Shown: positions 37,101 to 64,000 of the stretch, in pieces
How the letters are laid out: every line of letters starts with the position of its first letter
Position numbering within the stretch: the first letter of the stretch is position 1
From: a virus
DNA length: 64,000 bases
Strand: one strand, 5' to 3'
Virus record (IMG/VR): IMGVR_UViG_3300009177_000028
Coordinates: 62,001-126,000 of that record
The notes under the pieces: model-generated
The model's input: the letters and a program-made list of their open reading frames with translations, nothing else
What the model was told of the DNA's origin: nothing
Databases searched by the model: none
Made by a program: the position numbers and the translations under genes

Positions 37101-38015
37101 TCACAATATGTTAACTCTAGTACTGTTGTTTTGTTTAACACAAATACTATTAGTCCAGTTACTGATGGAAACAATGGTAGCATTGTCGCTAGACTTTCAA
37201 GATTTAATGCTGAGCCATTAATGAGACTTGATCCAAATAATATTAGGAAAGGAACGGGCGCTTCAATTGTTGTTAGCGGACTAAATAATCAAGTGGTTAC
37301 AATTAGCGGCCTAAGTGGAATGACAAATGCAGATGTTGGTTTAACTATCAGCATTCGTAATGCTACTGGAACCTTTTTTGGTGGATTTAATAACAATACC
37401 TTTTTTAAGATTAGAAGCGTTACTAATGCTACCACCGTAGTTACCAGTTTAGGTAGCCACAATAGCGGTAAGTATCCAACATACAATGGTGGTGGATGGC
37501 AGCCTGTAACCGATGCCAATAATGGGAATTTAGACTGGACTATTATTACTAGTCACAATGCCTACGATCCGGATAATGGATATGTTTTTGAAGCTTACTA
37601 TGATGATTTGACTGGCAGTGTCTGGGCAGGTAACGGATTCCATGGAGTTCAGAGATGGGATCCTAATAATTTCCACCCACTACCAAACACTTTCCCATTA
37701 CCAACTAACCCAATAACCATCTTAAGCCCAACTAATATAAATGCTTTCCAGGGACAGGTAACTAACGATGGTCAGTATGTTTGGACCACAGGCGGATATA
37801 GCGGAGGCCATTCGGTCGTACGTGTTGATCCGGCCACCAATCAAATTGTAGCTGAATTGTTAACACCAGTTCCAGCTTGGTCAGATGGCGTAGCCTATGA
37901 CGGTAAATATATATGGTTTACCACTCGTGATGGCTCGGAAAATGGTGCGCTCAACCGCGTAAGTATTACGCCGGGTAGCGAAACAATTAATTTTAGATTA
38001 AAGGCAAAAGACTAA
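34161..38015 (+). CDS. Fibre protein with shared N-terminal anchor and beta-propeller-like body
   Basis: A 1284-residue protein preceded by an AAAGGCTTTGA leader. Residues 1-70 (KYPSQIDTN, ENELGVKPSATY, VRARLD) are paralogous to the starts of the genes at 60163-61407 and 61540, and are a likely virion-attachment module. The next section has GDLSGSP and GDLDGYYPNP phrases. From about residue 350, repeated (Y/T)DGT(Y/H)LW(V/A)(T/S)D and KIDP units look like an NHL/YVTN beta-propeller. A module of about 63 residues ending in a GNG...GG turn (35391-35582) interrupts the propeller and matches modules in the minus-strand run. A sugar- or receptor-binding role is inferred. Confidence 0.87.
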   Translation: MTTKYPSQIDTNSTLPRAVDLVTPVKAAIVNDLIEAIITIENELGVKPSATYATVRARLDTLEGILGNLQVIELDKDLGGTLEEPLVVGIQGRPVSSAAPIPGEVLVWNGIAWAPAPGPSAVITFGGDLSGSPAIQTVIGIQGRPVASTAPTTGQALVWGGSSWAPGTVSGGGGGPTGPAGGDLDGYYPNPVVKQSTYPSFTVFGTELAFTGGQATEGFDLPATDAQRIGTTTTDNVAKVMNSVTPEDTQLIRVMSEIGATDGAGGAAWFLLKGVWVRSGNQLIAIKEPTVVDQSATLDALTWTAQLVANGSAIETQVSGENGKTIQWSLLREWLEVAGIGGGGGGGNSCPATPFSQPNSIAFDGTYLWVTDKDSPILTKIDPFAEAPIVVKTFDLSQYGRVSLQVRDATFESPIKITVAGAHGLTTGDQVNVSAVSGNTAANGTWSITVVDTTSFTLDSSTGNGFYTSGGKVLAGPITNARHVTMSPNNGIIVSCMDSGLVAFIDPLTDTVYQVSSVNNPGETGKVQWAYGHTTGEVFAIKTGANGGFSSSIKPLFSGQPEYPAPANGFISQCHLETLTYGAGYLWASGGAQNGIPASPIFRLDIDVFSPNVGTWTTHVNNQNANIWGVHFAFGSVWASTYGRKVFRYDPATFPSDPIVIDLGNPANGTAEMWDDGTYLWVTDINFHGQSFLYKIDPNTNTSTGPFFTVSSGGTGGITYDGTNIWACARNGAYPSVFKVDTTVGSEEVLTYYPPPFNEPVSLTYDGTHLWASDAGIGSIFKIVTDENVQPCPGCSRVINLSSYGLSKIREIRNHNGIIYACGHDSNKIVLVDATTEQVVGVCTLGQRVRSVTFDNSGNYWVATFSSGTLNFSNIYKISIAATLSAFPGEPTPLLNVPLSHHVENITFGGGFLWLGSGGFQNFWSVEEQDLGTTASLTTIDGNTATLSGITGADPGWVGGRVRVLLTNCAVANNNAEFTVSQYVNSSTVVLFNTNTISPVTDGNNGSIVARLSRFNAEPLMRLDPNNIRKGTGASIVVSGLNNQVVTISGLSGMTNADVGLTISIRNATGTFFGGFNNNTFFKIRSVTNATTVVTSLGSHNSGKYPTYNGGGWQPVTDANNGNLDWTIITSHNAYDPDNGYVFEAYYDDLTGSVWAGNGFHGVQRWDPNNFHPLPNTFPLPTNPITILSPTNINAFQGQVTNDGQYVWTTGGYSGGHSVVRVDPATNQIVAELLTPVPAWSDGVAYDGKYIWFTTRDGSENGALNRVSITPGSETINFRLKAKD
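35391..35582 (+). repeat. Module M1 (FCCH-like) inserted in the propeller
   Basis: Encodes SPIKITVAGAHGL...GNTAANGTW...FTLDSSTGNG, the same module seen five times in the minus-strand genes (M1). It sits between propeller blades and seems to be a surface insertion. Confidence 0.75.
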
Positions 38016-45221: not shown

Positions 45222-47651
45222 TTATGGTGTTAGACCGCTAGCGCCGTTCCACTGCAAATATATTCCGTTTTGTAAATGGATAAAACGTGGACAACCATTA
45301 TCTATTCCAGTAGTAACGGCACCACCGGTTGACATAACGCCGGTACCGCTTGTACATCCTGTAAATTGGGTTGCATTAGTGCCAGTATAGTTTACTAAAG
45401 AAACTCCGGTACTGGTAGTTACATAAATAGAACCGCTAGTAGGAAAGCCCGTAGTAGAAACAACGTTGATCGTTGCTTGCGGAAGTGTTGCTCCGTTAGA
45501 ACCAGATGCAATTGTTGTTGCTCCAACAAAAACTCCATTGCCCGTAGAGCCATTTAAAGTGAAAGTGGTGCTATTAATGACAGTAATAACCCAGGTTCCA
45601 TTAGCGGCGGTATTACCTAGTACCCCAGAAATAGTTACTACCTGACCAGTAACTAAAGCATTAGCTACGCCGGTAGTTATTTGAATGGGAGAAGCATTGG
45701 TTGCAGCGGTAATGGTACGTGTAGTAACTTCTTCTGTGCTTAAAGTAAAGGTACCAAAATTAGTTCTACCATTTCTTGTAATAGGAGCGAGGCCCATGAA
45801 TCTTTGATTATATGCAAATGGTGGATTAGAACCGGCTGTTAATGCAATTTCTGTAGCGATCCCTCCCCATATTTCTACCGGTAATATTTCGGTTGTTCCA
45901 GTAAATGGAGAATCTCCAGCATTAGCAGATAATAATGGATTAGTCGCTGAAGTTCCATCTAAATTAGCCCAACTACTTAAAGCACAAAAATCTGGTATTC
46001 CATTTTTAAAGGTAAACCCTACATTATTTGTTACTCCAGTTCTTAATATAATTGCGCCGAAATCGGTGTTTGGGGCGCCTGCGTAGCAGAATAATCTCTC
46101 TACATTTAAAGTTGGTAGTGGTGTTGGTTCACTATCTGGAAGTCCAAACATAATAAATCCATTATTAGTGCCGCCTAATGTTCTGGTGTATACGACAACA
46201 TACTGTCCAGACGATTCTGCTGCCATCGTAATACGACTGGCAGTAGTAGGGTGACCTCCACCTGTAATTAGGTTGCCGTAAGCGGTAGTTACTAAAGGAT
46301 CAATATCAAAAAACAAAGCTACATGATTGTGCGACCCACCGACTATAAAATCTCCATAACCATCAGCATTAAATCCTGTTGTAATAGAAACTAGTGGTAA
46401 AGATGAAATTGTTGGTTCAACAGCTAATCTAACTTGCCAGCCAATTGAGTGTGGACTTTGAAGAGTAATCCTGCTAACCTGAGTGACGCTGTCACCTGGA
46501 TACCCAGAAATTCTAACGCTACCGCCACCACCATATGTACCATTTCCGGTAGACCCGTTTAGTGCAAACGTGCTAGCAGTAAGTGGAGTCACGGTCCAAA
46601 CACCATTAGCTGCTGTGTTGCCAGTAATTCCAGAAATGACAACTTTTTGACCAACAGAGTAAGATGGATTTGGAGTAATTACAATTGGGCTAGCATTAGT
46701 TGCACCAGTAATTGTAAAAGAGTTATTCACAAAAGTTGACATAAAATTGGAGGCGGTTGTTTCAATTTCATACAACCACCAATTAATTGAATTGATAGTT
46801 TCAACTGGAGGGTTTTCGGTTGATCGGTAATCAAGAACATATCTATTTAGATTGCTAACTGCTCCACCTGTGGACATAGTTCCAGACCCGCCAGAGCACC
46901 CTGTAAATTGAGTAGCGTTAGTATTAGTGTAAGTAACTGCAAATGAGCCGGTGCTAGTTGTTACGAAGATAGTTCCACTGGTTGGGAAACCAGTAGTAGA
47001 TACTACGTTGATGGTAGATTGTGGCAAAGATTGACCGTTAGATCCTGAAGCGATAGTAGTGTTATTACCAACGTTAATAGCTGTAATTTTAAAGCAACCA
47101 GAATTTTTTGTTGGAAATGAAGTACTTTTCATCACAAACATTTTGCCAACGTCACCTGCAACAACTTTTCTTTTCTGTATTGGAATAGAAACTTCTTTTT
47201 CTACACCCGCTCCAAAATTGATACCAGTACCATATCCATCTGTAGTTAATCCAGATGTATAGAACATTCCTGTGCTTACCGTACCGCCAGTAGTAAAAGC
47301 TCCATTGCCAGCAGATCCTGATAGTGTGAATGTGTTGGCGCCAGTTACGTCAATTACCCAAGTTCCGTTTGCGGCTGTATTTCCGCCTACGCTTGCAAGA
47401 AAAACTGACTGCCTATTAGCTAAACCATGGGCCGTAGAGGTTGTAATTTGAATTGGCGTAGTATTACTAGCGGCAGTAACGGTTAAAGAATTTGCTACTG
47501 TATCTAGATTCCATCCCATGCTACCTACGATGGAATACCCTAGGACCCTGTACAAAAAGATAGACAATTCATACAAGAGTGGCGTATGGAATTTGCTGGT
47601 AGCATATCCGGTATTCGCTGCATTGTAATCTCTTGAAACAAATATTGTCAT
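45222..47651 (-). CDS. Family B appendage protein, copy 3, with five inserted modules
   Basis: The 809-residue protein has the family B frame: N-terminal RDYNAANTGY, an LSIFLYRVLGYS segment, NSGCFKI, HSIGWQVRLA, a GGSHNHVALFFD segment, GRTNFG and a C-terminal LQNGIYLQWNG. It is the longest copy because it carries three M1 modules (45519-45720, 46508-46722, 47278-47490) and two M2 modules (45310-45518, 46857-47066) in loops that are short in copy 1 (53400). It starts directly on the stop of the family A copy 3. Receptor-binding or fibre-tip role inferred. Confidence 0.85.
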   Translation of the reverse strand: MTIFVSRDYNAANTGYATSKFHTPLLYELSIFLYRVLGYSIVGSMGWNLDTVANSLTVTAASNTTPIQITTSTAHGLANRQSVFLASVGGNTAANGTWVIDVTGANTFTLSGSAGNGAFTTGGTVSTGMFYTSGLTTDGYGTGINFGAGVEKEVSIPIQKRKVVAGDVGKMFVMKSTSFPTKNSGCFKITAINVGNNTTIASGSNGQSLPQSTINVVSTTGFPTSGTIFVTTSTGSFAVTYTNTNATQFTGCSGGSGTMSTGGAVSNLNRYVLDYRSTENPPVETINSINWWLYEIETTASNFMSTFVNNSFTITGATNASPIVITPNPSYSVGQKVVISGITGNTAANGVWTVTPLTASTFALNGSTGNGTYGGGGSVRISGYPGDSVTQVSRITLQSPHSIGWQVRLAVEPTISSLPLVSITTGFNADGYGDFIVGGSHNHVALFFDIDPLVTTAYGNLITGGGHPTTASRITMAAESSGQYVVVYTRTLGGTNNGFIMFGLPDSEPTPLPTLNVERLFCYAGAPNTDFGAIILRTGVTNNVGFTFKNGIPDFCALSSWANLDGTSATNPLLSANAGDSPFTGTTEILPVEIWGGIATEIALTAGSNPPFAYNQRFMGLAPITRNGRTNFGTFTLSTEEVTTRTITAATNASPIQITTGVANALVTGQVVTISGVLGNTAANGTWVITVINSTTFTLNGSTGNGVFVGATTIASGSNGATLPQATINVVSTTGFPTSGSIYVTTSTGVSLVNYTGTNATQFTGCTSGTGVMSTGGAVTTGIDNGCPRFIHLQNGIYLQWNGASGLTP
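45310..45518 (-). repeat. Module M2 in B copy 3 (C-terminal site)
   Basis: Encodes IASGSNG..LP..TINVVSTTGFPTSG, a TTSTG hairpin and FTGCTSGTG, closing with STGGAV. It follows an M1 copy at the GRTNFG insertion site. Confidence 0.8.
45519..45720 (-). repeat. Module M1 in B copy 3 (C-terminal site)
   Basis: Encodes NASPIQITTG...GNTAANGTW...FTLNGSTGNG. It occupies the same site as the single M1 of B copy 2. Confidence 0.8.
46508..46722 (-). repeat. Module M1 in B copy 3 (before HSIGWQV)
   Basis: Encodes NASPIVITPN...GNTAANGVW...FALNGSTGNG just before the QSPHSIGWQV strand, where copies 1 and 2 have only short loops. Confidence 0.8.
46857..47066 (-). repeat. Module M2 in B copy 3 (NSG-F site)
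   Basis: One M2 between NSGCFKI and YVLDYRS. Copy 1 has no module and copy 2 has several at this exact site. Confidence 0.82.
47278..47490 (-). repeat. Module M1 in B copy 3 (N-terminal site)
   Basis: Encodes NTTPIQITTS...GNTAANGTW...FTLSGSAGNG near the N-terminus, before the KEVSIPI strand. Confidence 0.8.
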
Positions 47652-48938
47652 TTAGGTGCCTAAAGGTAGAAGATTGTACGGCATTATAGATCCATCCCAG
47701 GGCCATAATACACCGTTACCTACGTGTATAAATTCTCCATTATCACCCACTAAATGAAAGTTGGGAACGTTGGTGCTCGTGAATGCTATTCTAGTTAATT
47801 TGGCTCTAGCTAAAGAGTATTGGCCAGCGGTAGAAATTGAAGATATTAATGCGTCTGAATAAATTATTTTACCGGTTCTAATTTGTGTTCCTAAAAGACC
47901 TGATAAATTTGGACCAACAGTGTACAGCGTCCCGGTAACACCATCTCCAACGAAATTTTTAGTCATTAATTGGCAAGTTCTAGTGGTCCCATCGAACCCG
48001 GCCATAGCAAAACTAGTGCTATGAGAGTCGGTACCTACAGCGGCTGTTAAATTATTACCGCCAACCATCATGGTTAGTGGGTTCGTATCTTGCGCTTGAG
48101 TATAGAACCTTTGAGGAACAAGCACATAGAAATATAGCCCTGCTGCTGCGTTAGAATTTGGAGATCTAATGTGTCCTAGAAGAAAATCAGTATCACCTAT
48201 TAGCGTGATATTGCCTATATTTCCCGCAGTGGTTCCAGTGAAATTGACTGTTGAGGCGGTAACTCTTTCAGTGATGGTGGTACCTGTAAAGGCGCTGCCA
48301 GTCCAAGTGCCCGGTGGAGATCCAACTACCCCAAACTGTCCGAATGGAGTGGAAGAGCCTCTTAGCAACATTTGAAATTGACTGCTGGCTTGGCCCGTGT
48401 TGACGCCAGAGGCGCCCGATAAAGTTCCTACCCAATAATTACCGCTAGCAATGCCTAACTGAGAAGCTGCGACGACATCTATTACTCTATAGTTGAGAGC
48501 TGAACGAGAAGTTAAATTATTTTTAAGTGTAGTAATATCTCTTGTCCCGCCACTAAATACGGATAGTTGTAATTGAGTTTGTGTTGGCACCCCGATAATT
48601 CTATAAATAGAATTATCTGTGCTATCTGGATCAGTGGTAGACCAAATAGTGATGTGCTTACCAATCATTGTTGAGTTAAAGTTGGCGGATGGAGAATTAA
48701 AATTAATTCCAAGATCCGAAGTTACCCCATCACTGCCTGTTGCCAATACCGAAGCACCTTCAAAAAAACCGGCTGGCGCGCTAGTTGGTGTGGCGGGCAT
48801 TCCACCTGGAGTGGTTAGAGAGGATGTTCCATTTATACAATATCCCCAGAACTCATAACAAATTCTTAGGAAGATAGGAATGTCCCTTCCATTAGTTCCT
48901 GTAATATACTGTAATGCTCTTAGATATTTTCTAGCCAT
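47652..48938 (-). CDS. Family A appendage protein, copy 3
   Basis: The 428-residue copy shares its frame with 51817-53385 and 54861-56411. The frame comprises an N-terminal ARKYLRAL, FWGYCINGTSSL, a GKHITIW...DNSIYRI segment, SRSALNYRVID, GQASSQFQ, LARAKLTRIAF and HVGNGVLWPWDG. It is the shortest copy, with neither M1 nor M2. An AAAGGAA ribosome site lies upstream. It is likely a jelly-roll or beta-rich receptor-binding protein. No catalytic residues are visible. Confidence 0.84.
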   Translation of the reverse strand: MARKYLRALQYITGTNGRDIPIFLRICYEFWGYCINGTSSLTTPGGMPATPTSAPAGFFEGASVLATGSDGVTSDLGINFNSPSANFNSTMIGKHITIWSTTDPDSTDNSIYRIIGVPTQTQLQLSVFSGGTRDITTLKNNLTSRSALNYRVIDVVAASQLGIASGNYWVGTLSGASGVNTGQASSQFQMLLRGSSTPFGQFGVVGSPPGTWTGSAFTGTTITERVTASTVNFTGTTAGNIGNITLIGDTDFLLGHIRSPNSNAAAGLYFYVLVPQRFYTQAQDTNPLTMMVGGNNLTAAVGTDSHSTSFAMAGFDGTTRTCQLMTKNFVGDGVTGTLYTVGPNLSGLLGTQIRTGKIIYSDALISSISTAGQYSLARAKLTRIAFTSTNVPNFHLVGDNGEFIHVGNGVLWPWDGSIMPYNLLPLGT

Positions 48939-48947
48939 ATTATTCCT

Positions 48948-49517
48948 TTATTGAATCCATCGCCCTACAATAGTTATATTGTCTAATGAATTGGTGCTTG
49001 GGGCGGTCTTATATACATCATTTTCCACATTTGGCGGATTACGATTAGGATCAAATAACTCTGGTCGACCAGTAATATTCTCAACAATAACCCAAGTTTC
49101 ATATTGTTGTGTTGATGTATTATATCCTCTAAGTTTGTAATAGATCCTTTGATCTTTTGGATGATCAATAACGGAATCAATGTCTACATCTTCTTCTGAA
49201 CGATTTTCAAGAAGTTGAATGCCTGCAAAATTAGTTGTGTATCCTGCATATGGTGAATTAACAAAGCTAGCAACAACAATGAAAGAGTTTTCAGTGGCGG
49301 CAAAATTAGTTGTGTATCCTGCATACGGAGAGTTATTAAAAAATGCAAGTGTACTTTGCATATCAAAACCTCCCCAATTAAGAAAATTTCCTTGGAAACG
49401 CCCATCTGTAAAATGTAAATTAACAACAGTAGTGTACCCATCCCACTTCGCTACAGATCCGAAATCGGGCGTATCCAACATTATTTGTGTTGCTGATAAA
49501 ATTTGACCTACTGCCAT
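48948..49517 (-). CDS. Family C appendage protein, copy 1, with internal duplication
   Basis: A 189-residue protein. A NSPYAGYTTNFA segment occurs twice, 25 residues apart. The matching DNA (49225-49250 and 49300-49325) is identical over 26 bp, so the duplication is recent. The C-terminal half has YYKLRGYNTSTQQYETW and a SLDNITIVGRWIQ end, as in 44891-45214. It has an AAGGATAA ribosome site and lies between a B and an A gene in the cassette array. Confidence 0.82.
   Translation of the reverse strand: MAVGQILSATQIMLDTPDFGSVAKWDGYTTVVNLHFTDGRFQGNFLNWGGFDMQSTLAFFNNSPYAGYTTNFAATENSFIVVASFVNSPYAGYTTNFAGIQLLENRSEEDVDIDSVIDHPKDQRIYYKLRGYNTSTQQYETWVIVENITGRPELFDPNRNPPNVENDVYKTAPSTNSLDNITIVGRWIQ
49225..49325 (-). 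repeat. 26-bp perfect direct repeat, 75-bp period
   Basis: Two identical 26-bp stretches start at 49225 and 49300. Each encodes YAGYTTNFA in the minus-strand family C gene, and the spacing keeps the frame. The perfect identity contrasts with the diverged paralogues nearby. Confidence 0.85.
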
Positions 49518-49526
49518 TGATTATCC

Positions 49527-51806
49527 TTATGGTACTACCGCTGGCCCATTCCAAGGTATGTAGATTCCTCTTCTCATATGTTGAAAAGATGATCCTCTTA
49601 ATACTGTTCCGCCAGCGGTAAAAGCTCCATTTCCAGTCGTTCCATTTAATGTAAACTGAGTATTGTTAATCACTGTAACTACGAAAGTTCCATTGGCTGC
49701 CGTATTTCCACCAACTCCACTAATTGCCACCGTTTGACCGGTTACCAGCGTATTAGTAGCGGTAGTTGTGATTTGAATTGGAGAAACTCCATTTCCACTA
49801 GTAGTTGAAACGCTCCAGCTTGCCGAGTCAGTTGTCAATGTATAATCACCAAAATTAGTTCTTCCATTCTTGATGAATGGAAGCGTGCCCATTGCCTTAG
49901 GATAAAACGGATAGCTAATTGAGTTTGTAATATCGTGCCAAGTATTTACTACGCCAGCCACCAAATCGACTGGTAAAAGTTCGGTTGATGAAGTAAATGG
50001 AGAGTCTCCGGCCGAGCCATCAAACATTGGGCTAGCTCCCTGTACAACACCACTTAAATAAGTTAGAGAGGATGGAGAGCAAGAAATAGGTACCCACTTA
50101 AATGCCGCTCCCTGAATAGAGACAGTAACATAATGTCCAACAAACAAACTTACATCGTTAGTTCTTCCATTTCCTAAGTTGTTACTAGCCCCATTACCTA
50201 ATGCATATAGTCTTTCAACATTATCCAATGGGAGTGGCGCTGGCTCATTATCCGGAATTCCAAAGGTCAAATAAAATGATGGGGGAGAACCTGCATTCAG
50301 TGGCCTTCTGGCAAAAATATGAAAACTTTGTCCAGTGTCATCTCCAATTAGCGTCATTCTAAATTGTGGGCCTGCACCAGCATTATCACCACATCCCGTA
50401 GAAGTATTGAAGAGGGCGCTAGAAGTATCGTAATACAATGCGCCATGCAAATGTCGACCACCTACTGGAAAATCTCCGGCAGAGTTTCCAGCAAACCCAG
50501 GGGCGAATGTTATTAAAGCTGTGTTAAAATTGCTGTTAGAATCTGTAGCAGTTTCATTGCAAATTCTTACTTGGTACCCCGTAGAATGTGGGCTTTGTAA
50601 TATGATTCTTGGAGTAGTTGATGTTCCGTAACCACGATAACCAGTTCCACCGTTATTGGCGCCCTGTGTTGGACAATTAATATCTTTATCATAAAGATAC
50701 CATGGAACTGTATCAGTATTTTCTACTAGTGCTAAATCGCCATTTCCTCTATAATCTACTACAAATTTGTTTTGATTATAGATTGGCTCACCAGTAGCTA
50801 ATGTGCCGGTGCCACTGGAACAACCTGTAAATGCGATCTGAGTAACCGCTCCACCAGTAGACATAGTTCCTGTTCCACCGGAACAACCAGTGAACTGCGT
50901 ACCACCAGACGTGCTGGTGTAAGTCACCGTTTGGGCACCTGCGCTCGTGGTAACTGTAATGGTTCCGCTGCCCAAGAATCCAGCAGTAGAGGCAACGTTA
51001 ATAGTGCCTTGTGGAAGAACTTGTCCGTTTGAACCGGCAGCAATAGTTGTGCTAGCATTCTGTGTTCCGGTATAGTTAATTGTTTGAATATTATTGCTTG
51101 AAAAAACCGTGCCACCAGTAAACATAGATCCGGCACCGCCTGTACACCCAGTGAATTGAGTACCAGCGTTTAATCCTGTATAAGTGATTGTTTGACTTCC
51201 TGTTGTTGACAATAAAATTATTGATCCTGAATTTGGGAACCCCGTGGTAGAGGCTACGTTAATGGTGCCAGTTGGTAGCGCTACGCCATTGGAGCCAGAT
51301 GCAACGGTGGTGTTAGGTCCAGCAAAAAAACTTCCGCTGGCTGGAAATCCAGAAACTGAAGCTGCATAAATGGTTGCCGTAGGTAAAGATACAGCATTCG
51401 AGCCCGCTGCTACGGTTGTAGTATTACCTTGCTGCAATGCGGTAATTAAAAACAATCCAGAGTTTCTATAAGGATAAAGGGGGCTTTTAAGAACTAAAAT
51501 TCTGCCGATATCAGCAGAGATAACCCCTCTAACAGAAACTGGTATTGAAACTTCAATTGCAGCGCCGTTGTTAGCAATACCGGCTTTATTACCTACTGGG
51601 AAAGTTGGAGTATTAGCCGTGGGTGTAGTGTCGCCTGTTGCAAATAATAATTGTCCAACAGCGTTTATGTTATAATTAGTATCTCCAACATATGTGAAAC
51701 TCAAAATTCTTCTTAAGAAAATAGATGACACATAGGAATTAATCCATGGCCTATTTCCTGTAGTTACGTTTTGTGTGAGATAATCTCGGCAAAGATGAAC
51801 AACCAT
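49527..51806 (-). CDS. Family B appendage protein, copy 2, with M1 and M2 modules
   Basis: The 759-residue copy begins MVVHLCRDYLTQNVTTGN and has SIFLRRILSFTYVGDTNYN, HSTGYQVRICNE and GRTNFGDY, ending RRGIYIPWNGP. Against copy 1 (483 residues) it gains about 220 residues at the NSGLFLI site: two full M2 modules, one partial and a remnant (about 50795-51422). It also gains one M1 module at the GRTNFG site (49603-49800). The rest aligns without gaps of note. A receptor-binding role is inferred. The start has a TAAAGG site. Confidence 0.85.
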   Translation of the reverse strand: MVVHLCRDYLTQNVTTGNRPWINSYVSSIFLRRILSFTYVGDTNYNINAVGQLLFATGDTTPTANTPTFPVGNKAGIANNGAAIEVSIPVSVRGVISADIGRILVLKSPLYPYRNSGLFLITALQQGNTTTVAAGSNAVSLPTATIYAASVSGFPASGSFFAGPNTTVASGSNGVALPTGTINVASTTGFPNSGSIILLSTTGSQTITYTGLNAGTQFTGCTGGAGSMFTGGTVFSSNNIQTINYTGTQNASTTIAAGSNGQVLPQGTINVASTAGFLGSGTITVTTSAGAQTVTYTSTSGGTQFTGCSGGTGTMSTGGAVTQIAFTGCSSGTGTLATGEPIYNQNKFVVDYRGNGDLALVENTDTVPWYLYDKDINCPTQGANNGGTGYRGYGTSTTPRIILQSPHSTGYQVRICNETATDSNSNFNTALITFAPGFAGNSAGDFPVGGRHLHGALYYDTSSALFNTSTGCGDNAGAGPQFRMTLIGDDTGQSFHIFARRPLNAGSPPSFYLTFGIPDNEPAPLPLDNVERLYALGNGASNNLGNGRTNDVSLFVGHYVTVSIQGAAFKWVPISCSPSSLTYLSGVVQGASPMFDGSAGDSPFTSSTELLPVDLVAGVVNTWHDITNSISYPFYPKAMGTLPFIKNGRTNFGDYTLTTDSASWSVSTTSGNGVSPIQITTTATNTLVTGQTVAISGVGGNTAANGTFVVTVINNTQFTLNGTTGNGAFTAGGTVLRGSSFQHMRRGIYIPWNGPAVVP
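49603..49800 (-). repeat. Module M1 in B copy 2
   Basis: Encodes VSPIQITTT...GNTAANGTF...FTLNGTTGNG at the GRTNFG site shared with B copy 3. Confidence 0.8.
50795..51422 (-). repeat. Tandem array of M2 modules in B copy 2
   Basis: Two full M2 units (about 50845-51055 and 51107-51319), one partial (about 51320-51422) and a remnant (FTGCSSGTG, about 50795-50840), all in the loop between NSGLFLI and FVVDYRG. The array looks like local duplication with decay. Confidence 0.78.
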
Positions 51807-51816
51807 ATTAAAACCT

Positions 51817-53385
51817 TTAGAATGGAAACAGTGTGTACGGTAAAACGGTTTTATCCCAAGGTAATGCAGCTCCCTGAGATATTAATATAAAGTCTCCGTT
51901 TGAACTAAACCTAGTAAATTGTGGCATAAACACGTTAGCAAATCTTGCATTTCTCAATCTCACTCTAGCTAGTGAATATTGGCCGACAACTCCTGGCAGG
52001 GTTAAGAATCCTGGTGAATTAAGTAGATTTCCAGTGAACGGATTGGCCCCAGCCCTAAAATCACTTAAAGAATTGCCTGGAGGATTAGCTATATTGGGAA
52101 CAGTAGAACTAGCATTTCCATCTCCAATTAATGCTTTCACTGACGTTCTATATCCTCTAGCAACACCATCCGCTGCCTTCATTACAAATCCACCACCGTA
52201 TCCGGTACTAGTACTTGTTGTAGTAAATTGGGGAGAGACGTTGCCTCCTTGTATTTCTATTGCAATTGGATTAAGATCTTGAGATTGAGCATATAACCTA
52301 TCAGGTATTTCCATGTGGATATGAAATCCGCTACCATTAGGATTTCCAGTATCTTTGCTGTGGCATATTATATAGCTTCTATCGCCCCACATATTAATGG
52401 ACATAGTTCCGCTCGACCCGCCTGCGTTTGTTAAAGCTGGTCCCGTTACAACTCCTGTGCCATCAGTGAATGCTGAGCCGTTCCAGGTCCCACCAGGAGA
52501 AATATTGTAATTCCATCTACCTGTTGGGATACCACCACCCTGATCATTCATAATAATTTGTATTTGAGAGGTGGCTTGACCAGCATTTATACCCGTTGGA
52601 TCAAACTGGAAAACAAGATAGTTACCATTATTTGTTGCTCCTGATGTTTTACCAGCATCTCCCATATCAACTACTCTATAGTTAATTGATGATCTAGAAG
52701 TAAATGATGGTTTATATCCATCTGGTGGGCTCGGGGTACCACCATTATTTACATTAATAACAATATTATTAGTTGACTTAAAAGCTATTATATTATAAAT
52801 CGAATCTTCTGTACTATTAGATCCAGGTTTCCAAGTTACTAGTTGTTTACCAACCATATTAGAGGTAAATGGAATAGTAGAAGCCGAAAAGAAATCACTA
52901 TAACCGTCAGTTCTAAATATTGTTGTTGGATTAGTATATCCATCAGAGCCCATTGCATTGATTCTGTTACTAGTTACGTTGTTTCCAGTAGACATGGTAC
53001 CCGTTCCACCAGTACATCCAGTAAATTGGGTGCCAGCATTTAAACCAGTATAAGCAACGGTCTGCGTTCCAGTGCTCGTATATACGAAAATGGTTCCGCT
53101 GGTTGGAAAGTTAGTAGTAGAGGCAACGTTAATAGTGCCTTGTGGTAAAGAGACTCCGTTTGAACCTGCCGCAATAGTAGTTGCTATTCCAGTAAAATTT
53201 GCCGGAAAATTAGATGGTGTAGTAGAGGCGAACCCACCTGGAGTGTTAAGTGATGAAGTTCCATTACAGCAGAATCCAAAAAACTCATACATAAATTTAA
53301 AAGCAAAGACCGGCCCGGCCCCGGAATTGCCTCCGCCAACAATGCCGCCCGTAAATATAAGACCTCTTACAAATTTATTTGCCAT
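51817..53385 (-). CDS. Family A appendage protein, copy 2, with one M2 module
   Basis: A 522-residue family A copy: FMYEFFGFCCNGTSSL, GKQLVTWKPGSNSTEDSIYNI, GQATSQIQI, LARVRLRNARF, ending SQGAALPWDKT. A single M2 module (about 52985-53185) follows the ANFTGI segment, where copies 1 and 3 have only a short link. DGY tripeptides occur three times (MGSDGYTN, FRTDGYSD, PPDGYKPS). The GGAGAAG ribosome site is good. It belongs to the A2-B2-C1 cassette. Confidence 0.84.
   Translation of the reverse strand: MANKFVRGLIFTGGIVGGGNSGAGPVFAFKFMYEFFGFCCNGTSSLNTPGGFASTTPSNFPANFTGIATTIAAGSNGVSLPQGTINVASTTNFPTSGTIFVYTSTGTQTVAYTGLNAGTQFTGCTGGTGTMSTGNNVTSNRINAMGSDGYTNPTTIFRTDGYSDFFSASTIPFTSNMVGKQLVTWKPGSNSTEDSIYNIIAFKSTNNIVINVNNGGTPSPPDGYKPSFTSRSSINYRVVDMGDAGKTSGATNNGNYLVFQFDPTGINAGQATSQIQIIMNDQGGGIPTGRWNYNISPGGTWNGSAFTDGTGVVTGPALTNAGGSSGTMSINMWGDRSYIICHSKDTGNPNGSGFHIHMEIPDRLYAQSQDLNPIAIEIQGGNVSPQFTTTSTSTGYGGGFVMKAADGVARGYRTSVKALIGDGNASSTVPNIANPPGNSLSDFRAGANPFTGNLLNSPGFLTLPGVVGQYSLARVRLRNARFANVFMPQFTRFSSNGDFILISQGAALPWDKTVLPYTLFPF
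52985..53185 (-). repeat. Module M2 in A copy 2
   Basis: A single M2 unit in a family A gene, close to those of family B. It shows the module crosses gene families. Confidence 0.8.
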
Positions 53386-53399
53386 TCACTTCTCCAAAA

Positions 53400-54851
53400 T
53401 TATGGTATGATATTAGGCCCAGCCCAAGGGATATACAAGCCTCTTCTTAAATGCTGATAAGCTCTTCCATTTTCTGTAGTCGGAGAAAAATCTCCAAAGT
53501 TAGTTCTCCCTGAGCGGAGATGTGGAATAGTTCCCATTGGTCTTGGTGAATAAGGATACACTTGAACAGTTTGGTTTCCATATGATGAAAGAGTTCCTTG
53601 TACCAAGTCTATTGGTAATAATTCTGTTGCATTGGTAAATGGGGAGTCCCCTCCGTTGCTGTCAAACATCGGACTTGCTCCTTGCGCAACTCCCGTTACA
53701 TAGGTCCAAAAAGAGGCTGCAAGTTGAACTGGGACACCGAAAGTTGTCGCACTCATTCCTTGGGCGGCGCCTCGTGATAAGAAGAAGCTATTAGCTGGGG
53801 AACCTAACATTTGAAATAAAGCCCCATCATTAACTGATCTACTACCGAAACCATCGTCTCCAGTAAAACCTGAACCTAACACAAATAATCTGGCTACAGT
53901 GTTAACTGGTAATGGCGCTGGCTCATTTTCAGCCAATCCAAAAGTTACAATATTAGAGTCTGGTTGGGTTGCATTACCGGGACGCCTACCATATACGGTA
54001 ACCCCTTGTCCAGTGTCATCTCCTACCATGGTTATTCTAAATTGAACTCCAGAAGTTCCTCCGTCCCCAAATCCAGGAGCACCTCCGAGATAAATTGTAC
54101 TACTACTATTAAACCACATTGGAGCATGGAAGTGTTGTCCGAATGCCGGAAAATCTCCTGCGGCTGTTCCACCAAATCCTGGAGCAACAGTCATACGAGG
54201 ACAATTTCTATTGCTAAGGTTACTGGCATAAGAGCCGCTTCCCTCATTACAAATTCTTACTTGCCATCCTGTAGAGTGTGGACTTTGAAGAACAATTCTT
54301 GGAGTATTAGAAGTAAGATCACTTAAATATTCAGCGCTTGTTTTAGTATTGCTACCACCGCTAGTTGGACAGTTTAGATCTTTTTCATATATGTACCAAG
54401 CAATACTATCGGCAGCTTCTACTGGAGGAGGATCTCCTAAAGTTCTATAATCAATAACATAAGAATTTGTACTAGTTTCAAATCCAAGAATCAAAAAAAT
54501 TCCTGAATTATAGCGTGGAAAAGCTGTACTTCTAAGTACCAATAATCTACCGATATCAGCAGAAGTTACTGTTCTTACAGATACAGGAATAGAAACATAA
54601 AATTCTTTTTGTGCTCCCAAGTTAATTCCAGCTTTGCTGCCCGTTGCAAAAGTAGGCGTTCCCGTGGGAGTAGAATCACCAGTCGCAATTAATAAAGTGC
54701 CTATAGAATTAATATTGTAGTTAGTATCACCAACATAAGAATATAACAACACTCTTCTTAGAAAGATACTTAACAAGTAAGTATAAATAAACTCTCTATT
54801 TGAGTTTGTAATATTTTGTGTTTGATAGTCTCTGAGTAAATGTATCGCCAT
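53400..54851 (-). CDS. Family B appendage protein, copy 1 (module-free reference)
   Basis: The 483-residue family B copy has no M1 or M2 insert and so shows the minimal fold. It begins MAIHLLRDYQTQNITNSNRE, followed by IFLRRVLLYSYVGDTNYN, RYNSGIFLI, YVIDYRTLG, HSTGWQVRICNE, GDFPAFGQHFHAPMWF, NEPAPLPVN, GRTNFGDF and RRGLYIPWAGP. The His-rich loop (HFHAP) is also conserved as HLHG and HNHV in the other copies and could bind metal. A GAGGAAAT ribosome site precedes the ATG. Confidence 0.85.
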   Translation of the reverse strand: MAIHLLRDYQTQNITNSNREFIYTYLLSIFLRRVLLYSYVGDTNYNINSIGTLLIATGDSTPTGTPTFATGSKAGINLGAQKEFYVSIPVSVRTVTSADIGRLLVLRSTAFPRYNSGIFLILGFETSTNSYVIDYRTLGDPPPVEAADSIAWYIYEKDLNCPTSGGSNTKTSAEYLSDLTSNTPRIVLQSPHSTGWQVRICNEGSGSYASNLSNRNCPRMTVAPGFGGTAAGDFPAFGQHFHAPMWFNSSSTIYLGGAPGFGDGGTSGVQFRITMVGDDTGQGVTVYGRRPGNATQPDSNIVTFGLAENEPAPLPVNTVARLFVLGSGFTGDDGFGSRSVNDGALFQMLGSPANSFFLSRGAAQGMSATTFGVPVQLAASFWTYVTGVAQGASPMFDSNGGDSPFTNATELLPIDLVQGTLSSYGNQTVQVYPYSPRPMGTIPHLRSGRTNFGDFSPTTENGRAYQHLRRGLYIPWAGPNIIP

Positions 54852-54860
54852 ATTTCCTCG

Positions 54861-56411
54861 TTAGGCTCCGTAGAATAGAATTTGGTTTACATAAATGGTA
54901 TTATCCCAAGGCCAGCAAATTCCATTTTGTAATTGGATAAATTCTCCATTTAATCCGATTCTATGATTCTTTGGTACGTGTGTTCCGGTAAATTTTACTG
55001 TTCTTAATTTAACTCTAGCCAACTGATATTGATTTGTAACTCCGGGAAGACACAATAGTCCATCTGAAATCGGAATTGTACCAGCAGTTGTATTATAACC
55101 AATTTTATAATCAGTTAAGTTTTGTCCGAAAACGTCAGGGGTACCATCACCTCTTAAAGCTTTAACTAAAGTTCTATAAGATCTTGCTGTCGTGGAGTCT
55201 CCAGAATGGGTGCGCATGACAAATCCACCACCATAGCTTGCAGTAGTGCTTGAAGTATATACGCTGCCAGTGTTAAATGTGTGACCCATAAAAGCTACGG
55301 GATGAAGATCTGCTCCTTGAGGATATAATCTTGTTGGAATTTCAAAGTGAAAACTGCTGTGTAAATTAGCTTGAAACAAATCTTGCTCTCTAATATGAGC
55401 AATTAGAAATGTTTTATCTCCAATCATAGTTACCGCAGTTTGTCCACTAGTATATGCTTGACTGGTATTTGGGTTATAACTAAACAGACATTGATAACCA
55501 TCATTCTGGAATCCGTTATAAACAGTTCCACTGTTTGCGGTATAAGTGCCGTTACCTGTAGAGCCAGTCAATGTAAATGTAGTAGATCCAGTTACAGTCA
55601 CGAGCCATTGGCCGTTAGCCGCAGTATTACCTAAAGCTCCAACAATATTAACGGTTTGAGCGGTTGTGAAGTTATGAGGTGAAGCTGTAGTGCATGCTAT
55701 CGGGGAGGCGTTGGTTGCAGCAGTAATTGTTAAAGGTACACCTGACCAAGAGCCGGTTCCTGAAATGCCGACTCCTAGGGTGGCGCTGGTGTTTGTGCCA
55801 AGATTAGCTATTTGAATCTGTGAATTTGCTTGTCCAGGGTTAATGCTTGGAGCATCAGTTTGCAGGATCATAAAATTTCCATTGCCAGCCGATGTTGCTA
55901 AGGCATCTGATCCCGTTTCCATATCTACAACCCTATAAACAACACCAGAACGTGCATTCATAGAAGGGTGTTTGGTAGTCGGGTTAGGAAACCCTCCAGT
56001 ATTGATATTAACAATAATTTGATTGCTAGAAACAACCCTACTAATTATATACATAGAGTCTTCAGAACTATTAGAATTTGGCACCCACATGACTAGCATT
56101 TTACCAGCCATAGTTGGGCTAAAAGGCGCTGATGAAGTAGTGGTAAATAAGCAATCTCCGCTAACTAAATCTCCGCTGACTGCAACATGTGATCCATCAG
56201 TGCCTGAAGCCATTAAACTGGTTCCACCAGTAAAATTGGTAGGAAGAACGGTGCCGTTATTAGATGCAAATCCGCCAGGAATTGTTGGGGAAGCGGTTCC
56301 GTTAATACAAAACCCCCAAAATTCATACGTCCATTTCATTCTCCAAGCAACACCTCTGCCTCCGGCGTTTGCGTTGGGATAGACCATTCCTCGAATAAAT
56401 TTCATACCCAT
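54861..56411 (-). CDS. Family A appendage protein, copy 1, with one M1 module
   Basis: A 516-residue family A copy: MKFIRGMVY start, WTYEFWGFCINGT, GKMLVMWVPNSNSSEDSMYII, GQANSQIQI, LARVKLRTVKF and LQNGICWPWDN end. One M1 module (about 55518-55732) sits after the GTGSWSG segment, at a site that is short in copies 2 and 3. A GGAG site precedes the ATG. It opens the A/B/C array and lies 45 bp after the LamG genes. Confidence 0.84.
   Translation of the reverse strand: MGMKFIRGMVYPNANAGGRGVAWRMKWTYEFWGFCINGTASPTIPGGFASNNGTVLPTNFTGGTSLMASGTDGSHVAVSGDLVSGDCLFTTTSSAPFSPTMAGKMLVMWVPNSNSSEDSMYIISRVVSSNQIIVNINTGGFPNPTTKHPSMNARSGVVYRVVDMETGSDALATSAGNGNFMILQTDAPSINPGQANSQIQIANLGTNTSATLGVGISGTGSWSGVPLTITAATNASPIACTTASPHNFTTAQTVNIVGALGNTAANGQWLVTVTGSTTFTLTGSTGNGTYTANSGTVYNGFQNDGYQCLFSYNPNTSQAYTSGQTAVTMIGDKTFLIAHIREQDLFQANLHSSFHFEIPTRLYPQGADLHPVAFMGHTFNTGSVYTSSTTASYGGGFVMRTHSGDSTTARSYRTLVKALRGDGTPDVFGQNLTDYKIGYNTTAGTIPISDGLLCLPGVTNQYQLARVKLRTVKFTGTHVPKNHRIGLNGEFIQLQNGICWPWDNTIYVNQILFYGA
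55518..55732 (-). repeat. Module M1 in A copy 1
   Basis: A single M1 unit (NASPIACTT...GNTAANGQW...FTLTGSTGNG) in a family A gene. Confidence 0.8.
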
Positions 56412-56456: not shown

Positions 56457-57965
56457 TTACGAGTACCAAGTATCTAAAACTTCTGGAATAGAATATGGGC
56501 CGCCGCATGGGAAAGCTGGCGCATTTGCTAATGAAATTTGCGTATCTACCCAAACAACAGCCTGCGGAGGATCGCATGAAGTATCATACGCTCTTAATTT
56601 ATAATATTGGGTTAAAGTGGATAAGTTTAGTGGTAGAGTGCCGGTTCGATAAATTGTTTTAAAATAGTCCAAAGATCTAACAACATTGGCAATTCTCAAA
56701 TCTTGCACACTAAAATTAGCTTCTTCTTTAGTTGGTGAAGAGGTAACTAAATAAAGCGGGGTAGCTCCGATTACCAAAGCGCCCGGATTTGCACTAGTTG
56801 CGGTAAAAATTAATCTTGTATTAGCTGCCGGAATAACAGTTGAGTTGCTAAAAACTGTAGTTTTTCCGCCAGCAGCGCTTTGAATGCCGATTGAAACTGT
56901 GTTACTTGATGTTGATGTAGTATATAAGGTTTCAAATGTAGTTGACCCTTCAAAAAATTTAATTTCTGCATTAAGGGTGCCACCGGCCAATGAATTCATA
57001 CGCCATTCAATTACAAAAGTTCTGTTGGGGGAAGATCCCACTGTTGTGGTAAAAATTCCCAAACCAGTTCCGCTAGTGGTTGTGTCTCTTTCACAAACGT
57101 TAATGGTTGCCCCAAGTGAGGAGTTTGGTAAGCTAAAATTAAATGCATTTGTAGCTTGTCCGAATTCCACGAACCCATTTGATGAAGCATTAACAGAAGT
57201 ATATGTTATTCCCCATACGGTTACTGGAAATGGTAAAGCAACAGTAGTCATTACTTCATCGCCATGGTTTCCAATATCTGTTACACCAGAAACATAAGTT
57301 CCAGTAGAAGATGTAATGGCGTAACTAACGTCATTATAAAGTACATAAGGCCCCGGCATAGTCGTGCTTTGTAACTGGGCGGCACCGTTGTAAGTTAATA
57401 GTAAACATCCATTTAGATAAGATCTCATGGCGGTCCCATCATGCGTAAACCCTATGTGACACCATTGATGTAATGGAATCGGGAAATCGGTAACTGTTTT
57501 ACTTGTTTGTGCAGTTGGTGAGGTAGCACATCCAAAATAAACATCTTGCCCGCTGTTACCAGAACCATTAGAGACTTCCCAAGAAAAGAATGGGGCAGCC
57601 CATGTATTTGTTGTTGTGTGCTGTCTAAATAGTTTTTTAACGAATTGTTGAAAATTACTATTATTAAGATAGCTTCGTAAATTAACCCAAAATGAAATAG
57701 TAAATGGTGGTTGTGTATTTATATTTTCTGCACCAAAAATATAGTTTCTGGTGGCCGAAGCGCCAGAAGGATAGTTACCAGCTCCAGGGAAATATGGGCA
57801 GTTACCACCAAATACCCCCGTGCCTGTTCTGATTATTGTACCACTAACAGATAGATCCGTAGACGCACTTCCGGCTAATATACTTCCGGTGTTTTTGTAA
57901 ACTCCAGAGGTCTCATCTAGAAGCCATACGTAGCCATCATTTGTATCGGGTGGTATTCTTGCCAT
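56457..57965 (-). CDS. LamG-like appendage protein with a second beta domain inserted
   Basis: A 502-residue protein starting ARIPPDTNDGYVWLLDET. The LamG fold has PPFTISFWVNL, LHQWCHIGFTHDGT and MRSYLNGCLL strands, and resumes as FSVQDLRIANVVRS. Between them lies a domain of about 190 residues with LPFPVTVWGITYTSVNASSNGFVEFG and TFVIEWRM, a pattern seen in many secreted beta domains. After LamG comes YYKLRAYDTSC, shared with 57976 and family C, ending EVLDTWYS. The ribosome site is weak. A glycan-binding role is inferred. Confidence 0.84.
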   Translation of the reverse strand: MARIPPDTNDGYVWLLDETSGVYKNTGSILAGSASTDLSVSGTIIRTGTGVFGGNCPYFPGAGNYPSGASATRNYIFGAENINTQPPFTISFWVNLRSYLNNSNFQQFVKKLFRQHTTTNTWAAPFFSWEVSNGSGNSGQDVYFGCATSPTAQTSKTVTDFPIPLHQWCHIGFTHDGTAMRSYLNGCLLLTYNGAAQLQSTTMPGPYVLYNDVSYAITSSTGTYVSGVTDIGNHGDEVMTTVALPFPVTVWGITYTSVNASSNGFVEFGQATNAFNFSLPNSSLGATINVCERDTTTSGTGLGIFTTTVGSSPNRTFVIEWRMNSLAGGTLNAEIKFFEGSTTFETLYTTSTSSNTVSIGIQSAAGGKTTVFSNSTVIPAANTRLIFTATSANPGALVIGATPLYLVTSSPTKEEANFSVQDLRIANVVRSLDYFKTIYRTGTLPLNLSTLTQYYKLRAYDTSCDPPQAVVWVDTQISLANAPAFPCGGPYSIPEVLDTWYS

Positions 57966-61539: not shown

Positions 61540-64000
61540 ATGTCCAATTATCCTTTCAGCCAAGACAATAACATCACCCTTCCTGGAGTTTCAGGAACTT
61601 CGGATGAAGATGTTGCTATTACCGCCCTTCGAGAGGCAGCATTTGCAATTGAAACAGAATTAGGCATCAAACCGAGCGGTATTTATACCGATGTTCGTGC
61701 CAGATTAGACATCCTAGAGTCCAGAATAAATGGATCAATTCCGTCTGGAGTCACCAACGATGGCTATATTCTTAGCCCATTACTTCTTTGGAATACTTCT
61801 TCAAACGTTACCCTATCCATCAGCGATGGTTATGGTGTTCCAACCGAAAATAGAATTAACGGCTCTCTATTTATGAGGGCTGACGGTTACGCCAATAATG
61901 AACTTTATGTTCGTAGAAGCGGAGCCTGGTATCCAATTCAAACAGATTTGTGGGTTGCAAGCGGAGATTTATCTGGAACTTATCTTTCCCAAACAGTTAT
62001 TGGCCTTCAGGGTAAATCACTTAATTCATCCTTAGCAACTATAAATACTTTTGGTTTATCTAGAGACGGCTACCATTTAACTTGGAATGCTTCAGGACAA
62101 TATTGGGAAGCTCAAACCGGATTTAAAGCTGCTGGTGACTTAGCAATTACCAATAGCCCACCTTGGGGAAGAACTAGCCAAGTAGTAGTTGGCCTTCAAA
62201 ACAAGGCCATTGCTCCGGCAGCTACAACGCCAAGTGACGGTGATGTATTAGTTTTTGAAACCACTGATAATCACTGGGAACCACAGCAACCAGCCGTAGT
62301 TTTTGGTGGGTCTGTGCTCGCTGGAGACGGCTACGTAACCAGAACCAATATTCGTTCTAACAAATTACTTCAATCACCTTCCGCCAATACTTCTAGCAAA
62401 GTTGGAATGGTTAACTTTGGCAGCCGCTCATCAGGTCTTACTGCCGGAACTACTGAAAACTATGCCGCCATTCTTAGCGGTGATAGACACGCAGCTAGCG
62501 GACTTTTCAGCCTAATTACCGGTGGTGATACCAACGTAGCTAGTGGTCAGTATGCCACGGTAATTAACGGAACCACCAATACAGCCAGCGCAAATTATTC
62601 TGTAGTTATGGATGGTTACAGTAATACGGCTTCTGGAATTCATTCCTACGTATTGAATGGTTCTGCTAACGCTCCAGCGGCTCTTTATTCTTCAGTTCTA
62701 AATGGTATTTCTAATACTATTTCTTCAACTTCTACTCATGCTGCCATTGGATTTGGTTCAAATAACCAAATTACTGGAGCAACCGCAACTTACACCCTAA
62801 TCATGGGTGGAAGCGGCAACCAAGCCTCAGCTCAGAACGTCTTCCTTGGAAATCCAACTGGAGCTACTGTTCAGTCTACTTATTCAACAGTCTTGACTGG
62901 TTTGAATAATTCCATAAACTCAACTTCTAATTTCTCTGCTATAATTAGCGGAAATACTAATACAGTATCTGGATCTTCTGGATTTGGTTTTATTGGAACT
63001 GGTAATAACATTACTGTTACTGGATTATATGCTACTGTTCTTAATGCAACGGTTGCTACTGCTAACGGTCTTCATAGCTTAGTTCTAAATGGTAATACTA
63101 ACTCTGTTACTGGAAGTTTCTCAACTATCGTCAACGGAAATAATAACACTATCAGCGGACCGATCGCTTATGGCACTATCTTGGACGGATACGGTAACTC
63201 AGTATCTGGTGCTGGCGGATTAGTTGACGGTTATAATAACACTGTCTCTGGTATTTGGTCAACCATTCTAAATGGAAACGGAAATAGTATTTCCTGTAGA
63301 AATAGCACCATTCTCAACGGATCTTCCAACTCAATGGATGCCGCCAGCTCAGAAAATACAATTCTGGTTGGTACCTCCAACGTTCTAACTGGAACCAACA
63401 ACACAGTAACTATCGGAAGTGGTAATACGTTAACAAACGTATCCAGTCACTTTGTTCTAGGTAGCTTCAATACCCATCAATCTAACTTCTCATTCACCAA
63501 TGGAAGTTTAAATACAAGTTTGTCCGGAGCAGCCTTCAATAGGATTTGGGGATCTTCTAATACCATTGGAACTAACGTTACGATCAACGGTATCTTTGGT
63601 AACTCTAATGCTCTTGGACCAACCAGCACCACTAGCAACAACTTCGTAGCAGGCTCTTCCAATATCGTTGACGGCTATGGTAACAGCACCGTTCTAGGCT
63701 CTACAAATATTGCCAACTCCAGCTTTGGATTAGTCCAAGGACAGTATGGTAAGTCAAGAATGTTTGGACAACAGGTCCACGCTAACTCCAGATTTACTGC
63801 CGGTAGAGTGGGTGAAGCTCAATGGTCTAGGATGGTATTGACCGGAAATGCAAACTCCGGTGCCTCTATTCCTCTTCTATTGCAGGACGCCGCCCCAACA
63901 CCAATTACCTTTGTAGATGGCTATTCTTATGATCTACAAATTCGTGTAATGGTAGTTAATACTTCACCAATTAGCCCTAACCCAGTGGTCCCAGCTAGAT
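61540..64000 (+). CDS. Fibre protein with N-terminal anchor and degenerate N-T-S/G repeats (3' partial)
   Basis: ATG 61540 opens a frame that stays open to the right edge (about 820 residues seen). The start MSNYPFSQDNNITLPG, ETELGIKPSGIYTDVRARLD is paralogous to the genes at 34161 and 60163. Two GDLxGxY/GDLAITN phrases follow. From about residue 290 there are many short repeats of the form (A/S)(T/S)(V/I)(L/I)NGxxNT(V/I)SG, like the head repeats of trimeric autotransporter adhesins and some phage fibres (left-handed beta-roll). Ten DGY tripeptides occur. It may be the receptor-binding fibre. The C-terminus lies beyond the window. Confidence 0.85.
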   Translation, partial: MSNYPFSQDNNITLPGVSGTSDEDVAITALREAAFAIETELGIKPSGIYTDVRARLDILESRINGSIPSGVTNDGYILSPLLLWNTSSNVTLSISDGYGVPTENRINGSLFMRADGYANNELYVRRSGAWYPIQTDLWVASGDLSGTYLSQTVIGLQGKSLNSSLATINTFGLSRDGYHLTWNASGQYWEAQTGFKAAGDLAITNSPPWGRTSQVVVGLQNKAIAPAATTPSDGDVLVFETTDNHWEPQQPAVVFGGSVLAGDGYVTRTNIRSNKLLQSPSANTSSKVGMVNFGSRSSGLTAGTTENYAAILSGDRHAASGLFSLITGGDTNVASGQYATVINGTTNTASANYSVVMDGYSNTASGIHSYVLNGSANAPAALYSSVLNGISNTISSTSTHAAIGFGSNNQITGATATYTLIMGGSGNQASAQNVFLGNPTGATVQSTYSTVLTGLNNSINSTSNFSAIISGNTNTVSGSSGFGFIGTGNNITVTGLYATVLNATVATANGLHSLVLNGNTNSVTGSFSTIVNGNNNTISGPIAYGTILDGYGNSVSGAGGLVDGYNNTVSGIWSTILNGNGNSISCRNSTILNGSSNSMDAASSENTILVGTSNVLTGTNNTVTIGSGNTLTNVSSHFVLGSFNTHQSNFSFTNGSLNTSLSGAAFNRIWGSSNTIGTNVTINGIFGNSNALGPTSTTSNNFVAGSSNIVDGYGNSTVLGSTNIANSSFGLVQGQYGKSRMFGQQVHANSRFTAGRVGEAQWSRMVLTGNANSGASIPLLLQDAAPTPITFVDGYSYDLQIRVMVVNTSPISPNPVVPAR

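Follow-up and report, generated by a model that had tools for sequence, protein, structure and literature searches.

Which proteins are encoded by a cluster of paralogous phage genes whose products carry the same small modules at the same points, and how have these modules come to differ in number from one paralogue to the next? The question is raised by a window of 64,000 nucleotides that covers bases 62001-126000 in a virus record 204,387 bases long (G000) and contains jumbo-phage genes: a DnaB-type helicase, a ribonucleotide reductase, PhoH and a PhuZ-like tubulin match. On its minus strand, at 45222-56411, the genes A1, B1, A2, B2, X, A3 and B3 follow one another in this order and are preceded by three ConA-like lectin genes; A and B genes alternate, forming the three pairs A1-B1, A2-B2 and A3-B3:

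54861..56411, minus strand: A1, family A fibre-like protein, 516 aa (ORF; family alignment; gene order kept in relatives)
53400..54851, minus strand: B1, family B fibre-like protein, 483 aa, without modules, used as the empty-site reference (alignment; AF2 pTM 0.87)
51817..53385, minus strand: A2, family A, 522 aa (ORF; family alignment)
49527..51806, minus strand: B2, family B, 759 aa (ORF; family alignment; AF2 model)
48948..49517, minus strand: X, 189 aa, kept within the cluster at a clade-dependent position (gene order in relatives)
47652..48938, minus strand: A3, family A, 428 aa, without modules (module HMMs)
45222..47651, minus strand: B3, family B, 809 aa (ORF; family alignment)

No match for A or B was found in PHROGs, no A or B homologue was found in a phage isolate collection searched with B1, B2 and A3, and a PDB sequence search with B3 and with A and B profiles yielded nothing significant. 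In the comparisons described below, W stands for the window genome, and its relatives are viral contigs labelled L009, L010 and so on.

Three features were observed in the accompanying genes. Within X, a stretch of about 75 nt (NSPYAGYTTNFA) is duplicated at 49215-49340, with 82% identity over 51 nt. L1 (gene 56457-57965) has a domain of about 175 aa after its lectin domain (aa 214-388, 56802-57326), which is found near residue 43 in L010 and is absent from L009 and L015, a further mobile domain within the same cluster. L2 (57976-59439) has about 175 additional C-terminal residues, which none of its relatives (306-318 aa) possess.

Modules M1 and M2 in the paralogues

Two modules of 67-70 aa, M1 and M2, are located at points common to the paralogous families A1-A3 and B1-B3. 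They were counted from MAFFT alignments of B1-B3 and of A1-A3 and with profile HMMs built from five copies of each module. The copies lying outside the nested region of B2 are the following:

55521..55724, minus strand: M1 in A1, aa 230-297 (HMM E=3e-24)
52975..53181, minus strand: M2 in A2, aa 69-137 (HMM E=8e-31)
49602..49802, minus strand: M1 at the GRTNFG site of B2, aa 669-735 (HMM E=7e-27)
47277..47477, minus strand: M1 near the N-terminus of B3, aa 59-125 (HMM E=2e-24)
46857..47060, minus strand: M2 at the NSG-F site of B3, aa 198-265 (HMM E=9e-30)
46515..46709, minus strand: M1 in the mid loop of B3, aa 315-379 (HMM E=4e-20)
45510..45710, minus strand: M1 at the GRTNFG site of B3, aa 648-714 (HMM E=1e-25)
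45315..45518, minus strand: M2 after M1 at the GRTNFG site of B3, aa 712-779 (HMM E=6e-30)

The matches are not due to chance, since the complete modules of the window gave HMM E-values of 1e-20 to 1e-31 and the M1 of B3 exceeded the Pfam cut-off. M1 was identified as PF16190, E1_FCCH: B3 scored 45.1 bits against a gathering cut-off of 29.5, B2 (23.7) and A1 (16.7) scored below this 29.5-bit cut-off, and A2, whose sole module is M2, gave no E1_FCCH match. The family takes its name from ubiquitin E1 enzymes, whereas the context of M1 shows no sign of ubiquitin chemistry. M2 had no Pfam match; DNA repeats of 59-69 nt with 60-84% identity coincide with its copies. Homology between M1 and M2, which seemed likely by eye, was discarded: hhalign gave no significant result and global alignment a z of 2.3.

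The initial annotation had placed both modules at matching points of the paralogues, and every count that it gave was reproduced by the alignments and HMMs. The GRTNFG site holds no module in B1, M1 in B2 and M1 plus M2 in B3; in family A, which both modules were said to enter, A1 carries M1, A2 carries M2 and A3 carries none. At the NSG-F site the M2 count is 0 in B1, 1 in B3 and several in B2, as reported, but the copies of B2 are nested and not, as had been proposed, in tandem. Two M1 copies of B3 (aa 59-125 and 315-379) are additional to those recorded earlier.

M1 is also present in two more ORFs of the same genome. One, at 34161-38015, encodes 1284 aa with one M1 (aa 408-473) and has weak beta-propeller matches. 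The other, 61540-63999 and running beyond the window, has ice-binding beta-roll repeats (LbR_Ice_bind), with its M1 past the window end, at G000 127071-127316.

Modules nested within modules

At the NSG-F site of B2 an outer M2 is broken up by two complete M2 copies, which are lodged in two of its loops:

51318..51419, minus strand: outer M2 of B2, first part, aa 130-163 (HMM positions 1-32)
51105..51311, minus strand: complete M2 in loop 2 of the outer M2, aa 166-234 (HMM E=2e-26)
51057..51095, minus strand: outer M2 of B2, middle strand, about aa 238-250, NNIQTINYTGTQN (alignment to L009 B2; model strand E241-245)
50844..51050, minus strand: complete M2 in loop 3 of the outer M2, aa 253-321 (HMM E=4e-27)
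50781..50834, minus strand: outer M2 of B2, last part, aa 325-342 (HMM positions 46-68)

When the three outer pieces were rejoined, they scored 66 bits over HMM positions 1-67. In the AF2 model of B2, with a pLDDT of 63-86 across the nested region and under 50 in a large part of the C-terminal half, the predicted strands switch exactly at the nest cuts. In the L009 orthologue of B2 the outer M2 is unbroken at the third loop, which is an empty site for the insert present in the window and in L011.

Across the relatives, M2 is cut after HMM positions of about 23, 34 or 48, and M1 near 41-46. The rejoined outer halves span the whole HMM, scoring 59-105 bits for M2 and 23-33 bits for M1; one half alone scored 52. 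For nine pairs of halves the cut positions had a total misfit of 21, a value reached by 96 of 362,880 permutations, so that the left/right agreement beats 99.97% of permutations, a figure that is descriptive rather than an unbiased test because the pairs were compiled by hand after the data had been seen. The interrupted halves of a host thus appear, from their alignments, to make up one complete domain.

The partial M2 copies could instead be decayed tandem duplicates that never belonged to one split domain. Some of them have indeed diverged, and the largest protein has two places where more than one pairing of halves is possible. However, tandem duplication would be expected to leave the order 1-68, 1-68, whereas the order found is 1-34, 1-68, 35-68; moreover, the halves are complementary, are cut at the same three recurring loops and rejoin to full length. 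We therefore regard tandem decay as very unlikely and the partial copies as pieces of interrupted hosts.

The deepest nest was found in A1 of L010, L015 and L019 (approximately 1255 aa), where an M1 holds an M2 which itself holds an M2, to about six levels by sequence, two of them tentative, with short pieces of ambiguous partner. A protein of L079 outside families A and B has its own independent M2 within M2. At L044 5494-7119, an M2 is cut near HMM position 23 by about 58 residues that lack an M2 HMM match.

Self-nesting is already known from cyanobacterial RNA polymerase, where the SI3 region of RpoC2 contains recursive insertions (PMC13114784); this is the nearest precedent for recursive self-insertion. 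As in A and B, small beta domains lie within each other, up to six levels deep and with branching hosts. RpoC2 SI3, however, belongs to an essential enzyme and has a lineage-wide layout, whereas in A and B, putative virion proteins, the layout varies at shared sites and host and insert come from the same module families. A search of the open-access literature for nested insertion in phage and for E1_FCCH in phage returned nothing on the subject, and no report of self-nesting in a phage fibre was found there.

Occupancy of the insertion sites among relatives

Modules were found in seven genomes: W, L009, L011/L012, L010, L015, L019 and L020. The A and B homologues found in the more distant contigs L014 and L021-L037, with L021-L023 and L032-L037 among them, are all without both modules, and three of these contigs (L021, L033 and L034) likewise hold three A-B pairs. 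Full-length A and B proteins range from 426 to 1260 aa, whereas the cores that remain after removal of the modules are uniform: 477-519 aa for B, except L020 B2 (577 aa, with an unrecognised stretch), and 426-478 aa for A, the L020 A1 fragment being left out. An A1 homologue at L032 4798-8067 is extended at its C-terminus by about 600 aa, which resemble an SGNH-type hydrolase by eye and have no Pfam match.

The inserts of family B enter near B1 residues 57-60, 125, 137, 163-173 and 463, those of family A near A3 residues 43-49, 60, 88, 100 and 222. In the AF2 model of B1 (28 sequences, pTM 0.87, mean pLDDT 78.5) all five B sites are placed between secondary-structure elements, in loops and not in the core fold. 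L021 B3 has an insert of about 140 aa, unrelated to the modules, near B1 residues 159-166, adjoining a site that takes M1; the loop at this position therefore accepts differing inserts. The relatives occupy the same exact loops variably, and together with the B1 model this supports the original reading of the modules as insertion cassettes of variable copy number at shared loops.

The cores of W, L009 and L011 are 55-80% identical, and their layouts differ at some sites and agree at many others. In A3, M1 and M2 are present in L009 only among these three; both are also found in A3 of L010, L015, L019 and L020. The C-terminal site of B3 holds M1 plus M2 in W and L009 and M1 in L011; the nest of B2 holds two inner M2 copies in W, two in L009 and three in L011; the NSG-F site of B3 holds M2 in W and L011 and a nested M2 in L009. 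Between clade I and clade II the layout differs in nearly every gene, and within clade II it is almost constant. Turnover is thus real but slow, gains and losses separating phages whose cores are 55-80% identical.

In module trees, which are weak in detail owing to few columns, gene labels changed 8 times for M1 against 20.3 with shuffled labels, and 15 times for M2 against 26.9; genome labels were almost unclustered (33 and 37 changes). Two links cross sites: a W_A2 module groups with L009_A3 (97/94), and the M1 of clade II B1 lies near that of clade I B2. Modules compared within one genome share at most about 71% of their nucleotides. L011 and L012, which are 99.88% identical over 20 kb, have the same layout; 17 of their 24 differences, mostly silent, fall in 143 bp of the A2 core (L011 11777-11919), which resembles a recombination or assembly tract.

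The initial annotation took the cassettes to be shuffled by recombination, possibly changing host range. Layouts that differ at the same sites and the cross-site links are in keeping with rapid shuffling of this kind, as are the conflicting core trees, in which W joins L011 for A3 (98/98) and B1 (94/96) but L009 for B2 (89/93), suggesting exchange of whole genes or segments within the cluster. Against fast switching, modules follow their site and not their genome, none of those compared within a genome are nearly identical, the near-identical pair shares one layout and clade II is nearly constant. This part of the original proposal is accordingly not upheld, and rapid shuffling is unlikely. 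The site-wise trees, the layout of the near-identical pair and the limited nucleotide sharing indicate instead that the majority of inserts have been passed down in place, gain, loss and copying across sites being occasional.

If the modules were ancestral, with different ones lost from different paralogues, little insertion need ever have occurred. Loss did take place, since the M1 of L009 A3 groups with that of clade II A3 (100/99), which indicates that W and L011 lost theirs; however, the distant homologues are all free of modules and full nests require repeated insertion, and we consider a purely ancestral origin quite unlikely. Nothing was found in favour of a diversity-generating retroelement or similar targeted mutagenesis, which is extremely improbable: it is whole domains that vary, and the absence of a reverse transcriptase noted for the window held for the whole 204-kb G000 record, possibly incomplete, in which RVT_1 (PF00078) had no match while the control matched in three genomes.

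Predicted fold and a candidate adhesin arm

A Foldseek search of the PDB with the B1 model gave 8rk3_G, from the baseplate of Pseudomonas phage JBD30, as the sole significant match (E=1.8e-4, prob 1.00); the match is partial, with TM 0.31/0.45 (TMt 0.45), rmsd 8.7 and about 10% identity. Chain G, with 305 residues, may be gp48, which has 307 aa, or else gp47, which has 318 aa and would then be resolved in part; both proteins are chains of entry 8rk3. Fold matches of B1 in the viral library include the consecutive accessions A7KUT3 and A7KUT2. A search with the whole B2 model gave weak matches, mostly EF-Tu barrels with E above 0.004, and was discarded as fold evidence. Between the A and B cores hhalign detected remote homology (93.7% over 145 columns, E=1.9e-7); compared with gp47 and gp48, these cores gave hhalign probabilities below 1%, that is, no sequence homology.

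JBD30 gp47 and gp48 have similar folds, form arms of three heterodimers and bind the type IV pilus (PMC11445458). As with A and B, they are encoded by two adjacent genes and have a similar fold. The JBD30 arm contains three copies of one gene pair, whereas here there are three different pairs, known from the genes; the A and B cores are larger (about 430-490 aa against 307-318 aa) and carry loop inserts, which the JBD30 proteins, judged by their length, do not. Because of the B1 fold match, the gp47/gp48 arm and the remote homology of A and B, we propose by analogy that A1-B1, A2-B2 and A3-B3 may be three successive heterodimers of one arm.

Taken together, the three A-B pairs probably encode fibre or arm subunits with loop-inserted, mutually nested modules that change by rare in-frame events. 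The fibre role is suggested by the fold match, and the pairs would be virion components akin to the three-heterodimer arms of JBD30. M1 and M2 would be small all-beta domains lodged in loops of the subunits and of one another, each subunit keeping a constant core and growing outward through its inserts; where one host M2 receives two of them, the result would be a branching tree of barrels. So exposed, they may contact the host surface. The set of inserts would change through rare in-frame insertion, deletion and inter-site exchange as lineages diverge, most inserts passing down at their own site. A role in host range is plausible, given the predicted tail-fibre-like core. More tentatively, it is possible that recursive self-insertion of one or two small barrels builds genetically encoded, branched domain trees at fixed loops of a three-pair adhesin arm, and that the branches, evolving in number and depth from one lineage to another, modulate how the arm meets the host surface.

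Domain mosaicism is known among phage proteins, receptor-contacting proteins of different lineages sharing domains (PMC10684548); the sharing seen here resembles it, and nesting is unmentioned in that paper. The fold match ties an unannotated cluster of uncultivated jumbo phages to the tail-fibre architecture of one solved phage. The same host loops occur empty, singly filled or nested, a natural series that opens the order of gain, the preferred loops and the depth tolerated to tests by sequence and structure. The same domains, found in the same loops in differing numbers among relatives, suggest that these fibres grow and change as inserts are slowly acquired and lost; fibre change by this route would need no reverse transcriptase.
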